Positions 38,176 through 42,895 of a DNA stretch of 43,337 nt are shown piece after piece. The DNA comes from Chitinophagaceae bacterium. Lineage in GTDB: Bacteria > Bacteroidota > Bacteroidia > Chitinophagales > REEL01. Below the pieces are notes generated by a model that saw nothing but the letters and a program-made list of their open reading frames with translations, was not told the DNA's origin and did not search any database. The position numbers were made by a program, and so were the translations under genes. The first letter of the stretch is position 1, and each line of letters begins with the position of its first letter. The DNA lies in assembly GCA_007695095.1 (NCBI GenBank), contig REEL01000123.1, forward strand, positions 1-43,337, written 5' to 3'.

Positions 38176-39651
38176 TTATAGTGTTTTTAAAAATCCGGCA
38201 GCATATTCTAAATGCTTTTTTTGTTTTTCTTTTGGCATTTTGTCAAAGGTTTTTACCAACATTCCCAGCCTAGGGTTTTGTAAAAAGAAATCCCTGTGGG
38301 TGTCCATAAACCGCCAAAATAAGCCATCCCATACCGGCTGCCAGCCACCTTTTTTATAATCACTCATTTTTATGATGTAATTGCTGCCACTAATATACGG
38401 TTTGGTGGACATGATACCGCCATCAGCAAATTGACTCATTCCGTAAATATTCGGAACCATTACCCAATCGTATGCATCAATAAAAAGCTCCATAAACCAA
38501 CGATACACTTCATCGGGATCAAACTCACACAGTAGCATAAAATTACCCAATATCATGAGCCGTTCAATATGGTGGCAATAACCGGTATCCAATACCCTTT
38601 TAATCGTGACATCTACAGGTTCAATACCGGTAGTGCCATCCCAAAAGGAAGGCGGAATCTTACGCTTAAACCCCCAAAAGTTTCTTGTTCGCTCTTCGTT
38701 GCCTTTTAATTCATAAACAGCTCTGATAAATTCCCGCCAGCCCAAAATCTGTCTTATAAAACCCTCAAGAGAATTTATAGGTATATTGTTTTTTTCAGCA
38801 AATTCCAAAGCTTCCTCTACCACAAAGCCGGGAGTTAGTAAGCCTGTGTTCAACATGGGAGTTAAAAGACTGTGATGTAAAATATTTTCCTTTGAAACTA
38901 TAGCATCTTCATAAGGCCCAAACTCCATAAATCTATTTTTAAAAAAATCATTTAACCACTTCTTGCTCTCTGAAAAATTTGTTGGATAAATAAATCCGGT
39001 ATTTATTTTGCCAATATTATCCGGGAAATGTTTTTCAGTATAAGCTACAGCCTCATTGTAAAAATTGTCTAAACTTGCGAAATTGACTTTTGGCGGGACT
39101 TTAGCTTTCGGATATTTTAATCGGTTTTCACTGTCATAGGTCCATTTCCCACCGACCGGACTTTGCCGGTTTTCTATTAAAATATTTCTGTTTTTCCGCT
39201 GAGTCTTATAAAAATCCGTTTGAAAGAATCGCTTTTTACCTGAAAAATAGCTCTCTATTTCTTCAAAAGAATTGATGAATAATGGGGTTCTGTTTTTATT
39301 CAGTTGAATCTGATTTTCCTTGCAGGCTTTGCTAATTCTTTGTTCCAGCCAATTGTCTGTTGTGTCTATGTATTCTAAAGTTTGAATGCCTTTAGACTTC
39401 AAGTGTGGAATGAGTTTTCGAACATCCGACAACTCATCAAATGAATCTATATATCTAAGCTGAATGTTTTTTGACTGAAGATAGCTTTCGTAAAACTTCA
39501 TACTTGCTCTGTGAAATACAATTTTTTGCTTGTGGAAGTTAAATTGCTTAAAAAACAATGATTCTTCTATCAAAAAAATGGTTTCACATTTTGAAATAAG
39601 TGGGTTTTGCTCAAAAAGTTGATGTGGGAAAAGGATGCCTGTTTTTTTCAT
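38176..39651 (-). CDS. Cryptochrome/photolyase of the FeS-BCP family lacking the cluster cysteines
   Basis: 491-residue flavoprotein of the bacterial FeS-BCP (PhrB/CryB, DPRP) group, which repairs (6-4) photoproducts or senses blue light. The N-terminal alpha/beta domain starts [13 protein letters not shown]; the FAD domain has [30 protein letters not shown] (about 356-370), [14 protein letters not shown] and [16 protein letters not shown]. In PhrB four cysteines bind a [4Fe-4S] cluster, two of them in SDYCxxC; here that reads SDYKKGG, the cysteine about 88 residues earlier aligns with a proline, and the last falls in a shortened segment ([11 protein letters not shown]). The ATG at 39651 overlaps the upstream stop as ATGA and is preferred over the in-frame 39675. 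Confidence 0.88.
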
Positions 39652-39794
39652 AATTTTTGTTTGTTCTTTCGGCATTTATCGCTGCAATATTTTACTTCAC
39701 TCCATACCTTTTCCCATTTCTTGCGCCAGGAAAAAGAACGTTTGCATACAATACAAATCTTTTCGGGTAAATTTTGTTTTTGGATGTTTTTCAT
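39648..39794 (-). CDS. DUF2256 small zinc-finger protein
   Basis: 48-residue protein with four cysteines in zinc-ribbon spacing: [15 protein letters not shown] (Cys14, Cys17) and [11 protein letters not shown] (Cys37, Cys41). The C-x2-C ... YCSDxCR form and RPFxWRKKW-like segment identify the DUF2256 family, which is repeatedly found beside cryptochrome/photolyase genes. Start is ATG 39794; the TGA stop overlaps the ATG of the FeS-BCP-type gene by 4 nt. It lies 39 bases after the stop of the permuted photolyase gene, so all three genes form one operon. A role as partner or maturation factor is inferred from linkage only. Confidence 0.9.
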
Positions 39795-39833: not shown

Positions 39834-40934
39834 TCAGCTTATGTTGGACAGCTGTTTATTAACTTTTTTCCAGTAAGAAAAAAAAGATGGAAAATAACCA
39901 CTGATATTTTCAGAAATCCAATCTCTTTCTTCCATGATTCCTTTATATCCGTAGTTTAGCGGATGCTCTTTAAAATATATCTTTTCTAATTGATAAGTAT
40001 TAGCCAAGGACTCAAAAGAGCCTCTAAACACCTGAATATCAGGAATGTTTTTACTCAAAGCCAACATAAAGTCCACACACTTTTCACTTATTGGAAAATC
40101 AGAAAAGAATTGAGGATCGATCAGCAAAATACGGTTTCCCTCTTCCTCTTTATGCCAGAGCGGGTCCAGATTATAGTAGTTATAAATAAAAGTAGGCTTG
40201 TTTCTGTCTACCCCTACAGCCGGGATTTCGGGCCATTTGGTCTCCGGTAAAAACTTTTGTGTAGACAGCAGCTCAGTCGGAACTTCCATCTCCTTAATCT
40301 GCTCATAGGCCTCGTCTAAAAAAGTATTTGTCTGCCCGGTTCGGGTAAATTTATTGATATTTTCCTGATTGGCGTAATACTGTTTATGGCTGTTTACTCC
40401 TGCAACCCATTGCCAGCTGCAGGCATTACTTGCCCAATCTCCGTCTAACAGATGATAGTACATCCATTTTGCGGGGTGCAACCAATGTGACTTGCCGATA
40501 TTGCAAGTGATAGAAGCAGTGTACATCCTACAATGATTGTGCATATATCCGGTTTTGTATAATTGGTGTATAGCCCTGTCAACGCCCTCTATTCCGGTTT
40601 TTCCATTTACTATTGACTCCGGGATTTCATAATTTAAAAAATCCTGCCGAAGATGTTTAATCTCTTTATTTAAATCCTTTACCTGTCCCACTCTTTGGAA
40701 ATAATCCCGCCAGCAAAGCTCTTTTACAAAGGTTTCTATTTCGTAAAGTTTAAACTCCCTTTTTAAAACACTTTCGAGTACCATTTTGGTACTAATAACA
40801 CCTCTTGAAATGTAGGGAGACAAATAGGTAACGGCTCCGTCAATATAGTTTCGGGTTTTCCCATACTTCAGCGGGTCGATTTGTTCTATTTTTTCCAAAA
40901 CGGATTTGTAGTCTGTTGGTATTTCAACTTTCAT
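39834..40934 (-). CDS. Photolyase FAD-domain protein with C-terminal alpha/beta domain (probable circular permutation)
   Basis: 366-residue flavoprotein. It opens almost directly with the photolyase FAD-binding domain: YLSPYISRGVIS (37-48), ELCWRDYFQRV (72-82), GKTGIEGVDRAIHQLYKTG and GYMHNHCRMYTASI (129-142), then LLDGDWASNACSWQWVAGV (162-180). The N-terminal antenna alpha/beta domain of normal photolyases is absent. Residues about 247-340 instead carry its wording at the C-terminus: FIYNYYNLDPLW, RILLIDPQFF, PISEKCVDFMLALSKNI, IQVFRGSFESL and EKIYFKEHP. The two domains thus appear in reversed order. No photoproduct specificity can be assigned. First gene of a three-gene operon. Confidence 0.85.
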   Translation of the reverse strand: MKVEIPTDYKSVLEKIEQIDPLKYGKTRNYIDGAVTYLSPYISRGVISTKMVLESVLKREFKLYEIETFVKELCWRDYFQRVGQVKDLNKEIKHLRQDFLNYEIPESIVNGKTGIEGVDRAIHQLYKTGYMHNHCRMYTASITCNIGKSHWLHPAKWMYYHLLDGDWASNACSWQWVAGVNSHKQYYANQENINKFTRTGQTNTFLDEAYEQIKEMEVPTELLSTQKFLPETKWPEIPAVGVDRNKPTFIYNYYNLDPLWHKEEEGNRILLIDPQFFSDFPISEKCVDFMLALSKNIPDIQVFRGSFESLANTYQLEKIYFKEHPLNYGYKGIMEERDWISENISGYFPSFFSYWKKVNKQLSNIS

Positions 40935-41086
40935 CTATATTTTTAAATGTTCTACACTTAACAAGAATATTGGAATCTTGTTTTTTCTGAAAAAAATAAT
41001 AAGAACCTCCCCTGATTTAACTGTCTCGCTTAAACCCTTAGTAAAAGCATAATTTCACCCATAAGCCTCGGAAAGAAGACCCCGCT
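40935..41086. other. Upstream region of the photolyase operon
   Basis: Contains the presumed minus-strand promoter of the photolyase operon, though no exact TAnnTTTG element is seen, and an AACAAGA/TCTTGTT inverted pair (40960-40982). No gene. Confidence 0.45.
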
Positions 41087-41105
41087 ATTCGTTGTAGCTA
41101 CGAAT
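41087..41105. repeat. REP-like hairpin at the end of the transposase remnant
   Basis: ATTCGT and ACGAAT enclose TGTAGCT, with the inner palindrome GTAGCTAC. It shares GTAGC and GCTACGAA-type sequence with the hairpin at 41384-41407 on the other side of the transposase remnant. The transposase stop codon lies inside it. Confidence 0.6.
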
Positions 41106-41375
41106 CATTCAAAATATTACACAAATCAACTTTAATCACGCTCAACTTTCCGGCATAATTTCTTGCACTCGAATATATATAATCTTCCGGATTATCAACT
41201 ATACGTGTCCGAACAGGATTTTCATGGATGTAATCAAGCTTTTGTTGCATGAACTTATGACTAAAAATTTCTTTTGGTTGATTTTCATGTGTCCAAAACT
41301 GAACATGTCCGCCTCAGGAGGATATTGTTTATTACGCTTATGTTTATTAGCCGCATGTTCAAACAATTTCAACAT
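41098..41375 (-). pseudogene. Y1 (REP-associated, IS200-like) transposase remnant, C-terminal part
   Basis: Minus-strand translation gives VQFWTHENQPKEIFSHKF, then QQKLDYIHENPVRTRIVDNP and EDYIYSSARNYAG, the well-known C-terminal half of REP-associated tyrosine transposases (RAYT). Upstream in another frame comes MLKLFEHAANKHKRNKQY, the preceding family segment. The two join in frame if 17 bases (41305-41321) are removed. The N-terminal half with the HUH and catalytic Tyr region is missing. The gene is therefore truncated and interrupted and should be inactive. Confidence 0.85.
41305..41321. mobile_element. 17-bp palindromic insertion in the transposase remnant
   Basis: The sequence ATGTCCGCCTCAGGAGG includes most of a 15-bp near-palindrome, TCCGCCT-C-AGGAGGA (one mismatch). 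Its removal restores the transposase reading frame exactly (NKQY joined to VQFW), and AT is present at both edges as a possible 2-bp target duplication. It resembles the TCTGCCTnAGGCAGA palindromes in the flanking repeats. Confidence 0.5.
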
Positions 41376-41770: not shown

Positions 41771-42895
41771 TTAAGTAATAAATTTCTGGTAGTTGTCCTG
41801 ATGGACCGTTTCGAAAGTTGCATCCGGATAATTTTTCACAAAAGCTCTGGGTGGTTTTACTTTTTTATTTCGCCATTTACATTCAAAGGCAAACAATTTT
41901 CCATTGTGCATTTCAATCAAATCAATTTCCTGTCCGTCATAAGTCCGCCAAAAAAAATACTGCATATGCTTATCCCGGTAAATATTGTATTTCATTCTTT
42001 CATTGAGGATATATTGCTCCCACAGCTCGCCCGTATCATTTCTGACAGAAAGAGGTTGAAAATTACCGGTGAGTGCATTTCGGATGCCATTGTCATAGAA
42101 ATACCATTTTTTGCTCTTTGTCACTTCTTTTCGCAGGTTGTTGCTGTATCCAGTCAAAGGATAGATGATAAACGATTTTTGAAAAAGATCAAGGTAGCGT
42201 TCAACTGTGTTTTTGCTCATACCGAGTTGCCTTCCAAGTTCATTAGAAGAAACTTCCGAACCAATCTGATGAGCAAGTAAAACAAGTAAATCTTTTAATC
42301 TCTTCGCATTCCTGACTTTTTCAAATACCAATATATCTTTCAGTAAATAAATATTAACCGATTCGTTCAGGTATTTCTGCTTTTCTTTTTGTGTGGATAT
42401 TGTAGAAAGTTCAGGGTAGCTGCCAAAAACAAGTCTTGATTCAAGGTTTTGTTTTGTTTGCAACGGGTTCTCATTTTGTTGCCACTCTTCTTGAGAAAGC
42501 GGAAATAAATGGTAAGTAATCGTTCTGCCTGTCAGCGGTTCGCCCATTTGAACCAAATCGAAAGCAGACGAACCGGTCAGAATGATATGCAGGGGCTTGA
42601 TCTTATCAATCATCAGCTTTGCTTTCCGGGAAATATCCCGGATATATTGAGCCTCATCTATAATCAGTAATTTATAGCCTTCAAGCACTCTTGAATAATT
42701 GGATACACTGCGTTCTTCCAACATTTTTTCAACAAGCACGTCTTCTCCGTCAAGCCATAAAGTAATGTCTTTATTTTTTTGGTAAATAGTGTTCAGCAAT
42801 TCAGTTTTACCCACGCGTCTTGCACCAAGCAAAAGTGTTACTTTTTGCTTGTTCAGATGTTTTTCAATTTCATATCGCAATACTCTGTTTATCAT
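41771..42895 (-). CDS. AAA_14/DUF4143 ATPase
   Basis: 374-residue ATPase of the archaeal-ATPase-like AAA_14 group with C-terminal DUF4143. Walker A is GARRVGKT (24-31), Walker B LLIIDEAQ (76-83), sensor-like LTGSSAFDL (106-114) and Arg123 in GRTITYHLFPLS. The middle part has a winged-helix-like segment (SSNELGRQLGMSKNTVERYL), and the C-terminus has ELWEQYIL, FFWRTYDGQEIDLIE and LFAFECKWRNK, which has the E-x-K look of a PD-(D/E)XK-like nuclease fold. Such proteins are abundant, poorly understood and often in accessory DNA. The gene is intact. It is flanked by direct repeats and transposase debris. Confidence 0.9.
   Translation of the reverse strand: MINRVLRYEIEKHLNKQKVTLLLGARRVGKTELLNTIYQKNKDITLWLDGEDVLVEKMLEERSVSNYSRVLEGYKLLIIDEAQYIRDISRKAKLMIDKIKPLHIILTGSSAFDLVQMGEPLTGRTITYHLFPLSQEEWQQNENPLQTKQNLESRLVFGSYPELSTISTQKEKQKYLNESVNIYLLKDILVFEKVRNAKRLKDLLVLLAHQIGSEVSSNELGRQLGMSKNTVERYLDLFQKSFIIYPLTGYSNNLRKEVTKSKKWYFYDNGIRNALTGNFQPLSVRNDTGELWEQYILNERMKYNIYRDKHMQYFFWRTYDGQEIDLIEMHNGKLFAFECKWRNKKVKPPRAFVKNYPDATFETVHQDNYQKFIT

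Follow-up and report, generated by a model that had tools for sequence, protein, structure and literature searches.

Photolyases of inverted topology have already been described, as NewPHL (Emmerich et al. 2020, doi 10.1093/nar/gkaa1147) and under the alias SPL (Xu et al. 2021, doi 10.1093/molbev/msab191). NewPHLs/SPLs combine this inverted topology with CPD repair in ssDNA, and the NewPHLs named in the same source are alphaproteobacterial (PMC13274461). The class is defined by the lack of the N-terminal alpha/beta antenna domain (PMC9649867). We analysed a window of 43,337 nucleotides from a Chitinophagaceae bacterium (contig REEL01000123.1), whose source assembly is a Bacteroidota genome of 3.49 Mb with 98.6% completeness, and found that it carries an inverted-order photolyase gene of the NewPHL/SPL type. 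The initial annotation had started from the premise that photolyases and cryptochromes carry the antenna domain first. That premise is outdated, given the description of the inverted NewPHL/SPL enzymes (PMC13274461).

The gene occupies 39834..40934 on the minus strand, starts with ATG, encodes 366 amino acids and is assigned from Pfam, relatives and an AlphaFold2 model. Residues 1-224 (40263..40934, minus strand) form the helical FAD-binding catalytic domain, assigned from PF03441, structural matches to 1dnp and 1iqr (VIA Z 16), mapping to 1owl and conservation. This is followed by an inter-domain linker at residues 225-247 (40194..40262, minus strand), placed from the secondary structure of the model, and by a C-terminal alpha/beta domain of the HUP type at residues 248-366 (39837..40193, minus strand), which is antenna-like by fold and profile comparison and has its final helix after SFFSYWKK. 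All motifs quoted in the initial annotation are present in the reading frame at the expected places. The catalytic part contains YLSPYISRGVIS at residues 37-48, CWRDYF at 74-79 and DWASNACSWQWVAG at 166-179, and the C-terminal part contains NYYNLDPLW at 252-260, RILLIDPQFF at 268-277, VFRGSFESL at 302-310 and EKIYFKEHP at 317-325.

We observed a single Pfam match in the 366-residue protein, FAD_binding_7 (residues 69-195, E 1.8e-23). Pfam, a VIA match from residue 1 and the six reading frames confirmed that the protein starts with the FAD domain and has no antenna domain ahead of it, and Pfam, AlphaFold2 and VIA likewise bore out the proposed reversal, with the FAD domain first and the alpha/beta domain at the C-terminus. 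The protein therefore has the domain order of NewPHL/SPL (catalytic FAD domain first, extra domain C-terminal), shares with that class the lack of an N-terminal alpha/beta antenna domain, and does not show the canonical arrangement of PF00875 N-terminal to PF03441 in Pfam, VIA or six-frame translation. Its best PDB sequence match was the class III photolyase 4u63 (E 6e-15), followed by the class I enzyme 1owl. The highest-ranking PDB hits were to CPD photolyases of classes III and I, in each case to the C-terminal catalytic half, and no inverted photolyase was found in the PDB sequence searches. A DASH cryptochrome (TIGR02765) was rejected at 76.9 bits, compared to a curated cut-off of 317.05.

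The AlphaFold2 model of the whole protein, with 45 natural sequences as input, reached pLDDT 95 and pTM 0.92. Residues 1-224 aligned with residues 194-462 of 1dnp, the E. coli photolyase, at VIA Z 16.0 and 2.8 A over 213 residues. To map the catalytic residues, we aligned the protein to 1owl, the A. nidulans photolyase, with phmmer and counted positions from the printed alignment. E283, W286, N349, M353 and W392 of 1owl, residues of its CPD complex, correspond to E72, W75, N133, M137 and W176. W390 and W367, the two inner Trp of the electron-transfer chain, correspond to W174 and W151, and the flavin-facing N386 to N170. None of these eight residues of the protein varies among 45 sequences, and D164 and D166 are invariant as well. 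In comparison to the invariant dyad of W174 and W151, the position of the third Trp (W314 in 1owl; about residue 102 by alignment) usually holds H, Y, N or R. A Trp dyad is also found in D. shibae NewPHL (PMC8948257) and a flavin-facing Asn is conserved in NewPHL (PMC12083526); the 366-residue protein has both features, the dyad at W174 and W151 and the Asn at N170.

Residues 236-366, folded alone, gave an alpha/beta domain with pLDDT 91. Foldseek with the C-terminal domain alone returned no match with E <0.001; phosphopantetheine adenylyltransferases (nucleotidyltransferase-type folds) came first and Usp domains were listed. Together with VIA rows of Z 5-6.8 for Usp-type domains and no Pfam match in the C-terminal part of the protein, this would suit a generic HUP or Rossmann-like domain with no special antenna kinship, such as a Usp- or nucleotidyltransferase-like lid. 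However, after re-alignment of the Foldseek candidates with VIA, the top two rows were antenna domains of FeS-BCP-type photolyases, 8a1h 21-149 and 8ijy 2-128 (VIA Z 7.2, 2.4-2.5 A, 93-95 residues). Photolyase and cryptochrome N-terminal domains made up most of the top 14 VIA rows, and some of these rows reach the helix after the antenna domain. Since common fold arrangements can attain a VIA Z of ~7, sequence profiles were needed.

We built a C-domain profile from 47 Bacteroidota sequences and compared it with one of canonical antenna domains from 30 photolyases. The two scored 26.8 by hhalign, compared to a mean of 12.7 (sd 2.3) for column shuffles, none of which reached this value (0/150; z ~6). 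In the pairwise comparison, the hhalign probability between the Bacteroidota C-domain and canonical antenna domains was 24%. Against full-length profiles, the C-domain aligned with the N-terminal domains of canonical (27.9) and DPRP (25.3) photolyases, and the other full-length families (cryptochrome-like, SDR, flavin reductase, DUF2071 and others) scored 9.3-16.5. Against the DPRP antenna profile alone, the score was 29.1. Single-HMM searches with the Bacteroidota C-domain found nothing significant outside the family. The shuffle test, the placement on the antenna region within full-length photolyases and a PF00875 match to the equivalent Deinococcus domain (below) all speak against a generic HUP domain, which we regard as quite unlikely.

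The Deinococcus relatives are plasmid-borne and share 35% identity in the FAD domain. In the Deinococcus homologue, FAD_binding_7 (102-218) is followed by PF00875 (DNA_photolyase) at 300-395, with E 7e-4 for the protein and 4e-5 for the fragment. The Deinococcus C-domain profile matched canonical antenna domains with an hhalign P of 97%, from the first strand through the following helix (z ~20 over shuffles), and the two were reciprocal best non-self HMM matches among 3,950 sequences. Judged from these sequence comparisons, the Deinococcus homologues provide the decisive bridge to the antenna domain. With the Deinococcus C-domain alone, tblastn found only Deinococcus. The resemblance to the antenna domain proposed in the initial annotation is borne out, by VIA structure and profiles for the Bacteroidota family and by clear sequence homology for the Deinococcus relatives. 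The C-terminal domain of inverted photolyases may thus be a displaced antenna-domain homologue, which is possibly a new finding.

Bacteroidota and Deinococcus C-domains were weakly alignable (z 4.0). The Deinococcus members have extra cysteines like those of FeS enzymes (C-x2-C...C after the FAD domain, plus another in the GAAC/GLNC/GLPC column), whereas the Bacteroidota family has no cysteines at these columns and so lacks the four-cysteine set. Four FeS-cluster cysteines are a feature of only some SPLs; they are optional in NewPHL/SPL and their absence does not exclude membership. On the plasmid of Deinococcus sp. QL22 (L109:2396-3687), the FAD and antenna-like domains are encoded by two ORFs with a 4-base overlap, which is either a naturally split photolyase or the result of one frameshift.

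Alphaproteobacterial members were found in Ruegeria, Peteryoungia, Niveispirillum, Novosphingobium and Asticcacaulis. Their C-domains are connected to canonical antenna domains only by way of Deinococcus, whose C-domain they match at z 7.4. They had no direct match to canonical antenna domains, with 18/150 shuffles scoring as well, and the Bacteroidota C-domain was not alignable with them in the comparison made. The conserved neighbourhood in Alphaproteobacteria differs from that in Bacteroidota: in five loci (L110, L113, L105, L115 and L106) the inverted photolyase lies near or beside AarF/ABC1/UbiB kinase genes, with DUF3429 genes as its neighbours in Asticcacaulis and Novosphingobium.

A related-locus search recovered 80 Bacteroidota loci that encode relatives with 47-68% identity. 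The full-length relatives have ~360-370 amino acids, the same start and the same domain order, and align end to end; a few fragments at contig edges and some members with inserts depart from this length. Five loci (L048, L052, L053, L058 and L060) have ~30-55 extra residues, with aligned lengths of 390-414 compared to ~360. The C-terminal domain was detected in 18 of 395 sampled Bacteroidota genomes, each time in an open frame of about family length, and six-frame translations on either side of the gene contained no antenna-domain remnant. Because of the 80 loci, the missing remnant and the family-length frames in these genomes, we conclude that the reversed order is a conserved family trait with a patchy distribution. 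The homologue search called for by the initial annotation therefore found the same order throughout the full-length members, and the orthologues and six frames offered no sign of homologues with an upstream antenna domain that a frameshift had removed here. A frameshift or assembly error that cost the gene such a domain has a negligible probability, as no remnant is present and full-length orthologues from independent assemblies start alike; we rejected it.

A viral or phage origin was also rejected: viral contigs contained no relative of the Bacteroidota family and none of the Deinococcus protein, and phage matches were confined to the FAD-domain part. Two loci with other titles carry the Bacteroidota family, L070 (Polynucleobacter) and L071 (Sphingomonadales), the latter title being probably misassigned, as the phylum drawn for its genome yielded matches identical to those of the Bacteroidota sample.

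Taken together, the protein is a Bacteroidota branch of the known inverted class without the iron-sulfur cysteines, with the class set by its described features. With NewPHL it shares the N-terminal class I-like FAD domain, the C-terminal extra domain, the Trp dyad and the FAD-facing Asn, but the Bacteroidota family appears as a separate deep branch and its C-domain does not align with the alphaproteobacterial ones. It resembles SPL in the missing N-terminal alpha/beta domain and in a FAD domain like that of class I/III. In contrast to SPLs, which were described without an alpha/beta domain, the Bacteroidota family has one at the C-terminus, and it lacks the cysteine set of which the Deinococcus relatives keep the like. 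Class I CPD photolyases, represented by E. coli PhrB and by a 443-aa gene in the same genome (contig C67), have the same FAD fold and catalytic residues and a related antenna-type domain. They differ in domain order, and the inverted protein is shorter and does not conserve the third Trp of the triad. The FeS-BCP/prokaryotic (6-4) photolyases, including the DPRP encoded downstream, belong to the same superfamily and their antenna domains give the best VIA rows; they have canonical order, PF04244 and a FAD domain of another lineage. In the FAD-domain tree, the Bacteroidota, Deinococcus and alphaproteobacterial inverted proteins fell outside the sampled clade of canonical photolyases and cryptochromes, on long branches and with an unsafe root. 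A single clade of all inverted proteins, in which alphaproteobacterial NewPHL-like proteins stood in for characterised NewPHLs, was neither supported nor rejected, with a p-AU of 0.177 and recovery in 2% of bootstraps.

In the window, the inverted photolyase is followed on the minus strand by a DUF2256 zinc-ribbon-like gene of 48 aa directly downstream (39648..39794; PF10013, E 4.2e-21) and then by a DPRP/FeS-BCP-type (6-4) photolyase gene of 499 aa (38176..39675; PF04244, E 6.7e-53). We counted such neighbours over 81 loci, window included (80 for DUF2256). A DPRP/FeS-BCP-type photolyase was nearby in 40/81, DUF2805/TIGR03643 in 38/81, Flavin_Reduct in 37/81, a PF00875+PF03441 cryptochrome or photolyase in 25/81, the DUF2256 motif in 34/80, DUF2071 in 11/81 and SDR in 9/81; at least one such neighbour was present in 72/81. 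The gene usually sits in such a cluster of light and UV-repair genes. A proteorhodopsin gene lies upstream in four loci (L047, L049, L054 and L057), and a beta-carotene dioxygenase-like gene occurs in six loci, in L054 further upstream of proteorhodopsin. Rhodopsin and photorepair are combined in light-gene islands at the proteorhodopsin loci. Upstream of the inverted gene, the minus strand carries a gene for an AAA_14/DUF4143 ATPase, a common accessory ATPase family (41771-42895), and broken reading frames at 41060-41330 (DYIHENPVRTRIVDNPEDYIYSSARNYAG) with short inverted repeats of the GTTGTAGCTACGAA type nearby. These frames resemble the C-terminus of an IS200/REP-associated transposase, presumably a decayed mobile element. 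Promoter-like sites were no commoner than in shuffles.

The domain order and predicted fold, together with the conserved catalytic residues, the family and the gene cluster, make it very probable that the gene encodes a functional CPD-type photolyase belonging to the inverted NewPHL/SPL class, with a C-domain that is a relocated antenna homologue. A photoreceptor, that is, a cryptochrome-like regulator, would be compatible with the loci linked to cryptochrome-like and proteorhodopsin genes and with the two other photolyase-type genes of the genome. This is very unlikely, since the lesion-binding residues of CPD photolyases are invariant, the model shows no C-terminal tail past the C-domain, and NewPHL/SPL enzymes repair CPDs (PMC13274461).

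As a repair enzyme, the protein would bind FAD in its N-terminal helical domain, and FADH-, on excitation with blue or UV-A light, would donate an electron to the pyrimidine dimer that E72, W75, N133, M137 and W176 hold in place. Oxidised FAD would be re-reduced via the Trp dyad, W174 then W151, possibly aided by the flavin reductase that is often encoded alongside and is a plausible source of reduced flavin. The C-terminal HUP-type domain may pack onto the catalytic domain and serve as its lid or scaffold; Emmerich and colleagues are said to have described the NewPHL C-terminal domain as sealing the FAD site. The most likely substrate would be CPDs in ssDNA, as reported for NewPHLs, and the enzyme would act alongside the other photolyases encoded in the genome, one of class I and one of FeS-BCP type. 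8-HDF is an unlikely chromophore, because the sole match to FO synthase in the genome was below the cut-off (20.7 vs 374.1 bits).

The homology of the C-domain to the antenna domain argues for a rearrangement over a primitive antenna-less form. One possibility, which we hold tentatively, is that a single circular permutation gave rise to the whole NewPHL/SPL class, that the C-domain is a true antenna domain still capable of carrying a chromophore, whether at a comparable site or a new one, and that the class is not a primitive antenna-less ancestor. A chimera, in which the N-terminal antenna was lost and a related HUP domain later gained at the C-terminus, possibly derived from the antenna of a DPRP/FeS-BCP-type photolyase, seems rather unlikely. 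It would fit the similar scores of the Bacteroidota C-domain on the DPRP (29.1) and canonical (26.8) antenna profiles, the FeS-BCP-type photolyases in the best VIA rows, the Deinococcus C-domains that instead resemble class I antenna domains, and the two-ORF coding in QL22, which suggests that the domains can be separate modules. However, one origin is simpler, because the Bacteroidota and Deinococcus C-domains sit at the same position and are weakly alignable, and the Deinococcus match extends through the post-antenna helix, as a clean permutation predicts.

It has been proposed that SPL/NewPHL enzymes may be ancestral to the whole of the photolyases and cryptochromes, in part on the grounds of their shortness and missing antenna domain. 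If the antenna domain sits at the other end, as indicated by sequence for the Deinococcus proteins and by structure for the Bacteroidota family, this argument becomes weaker, and the class would look rearranged and not primitive. The Bacteroidota family also lends itself to testing whether an antenna domain still works from the other end of the protein.
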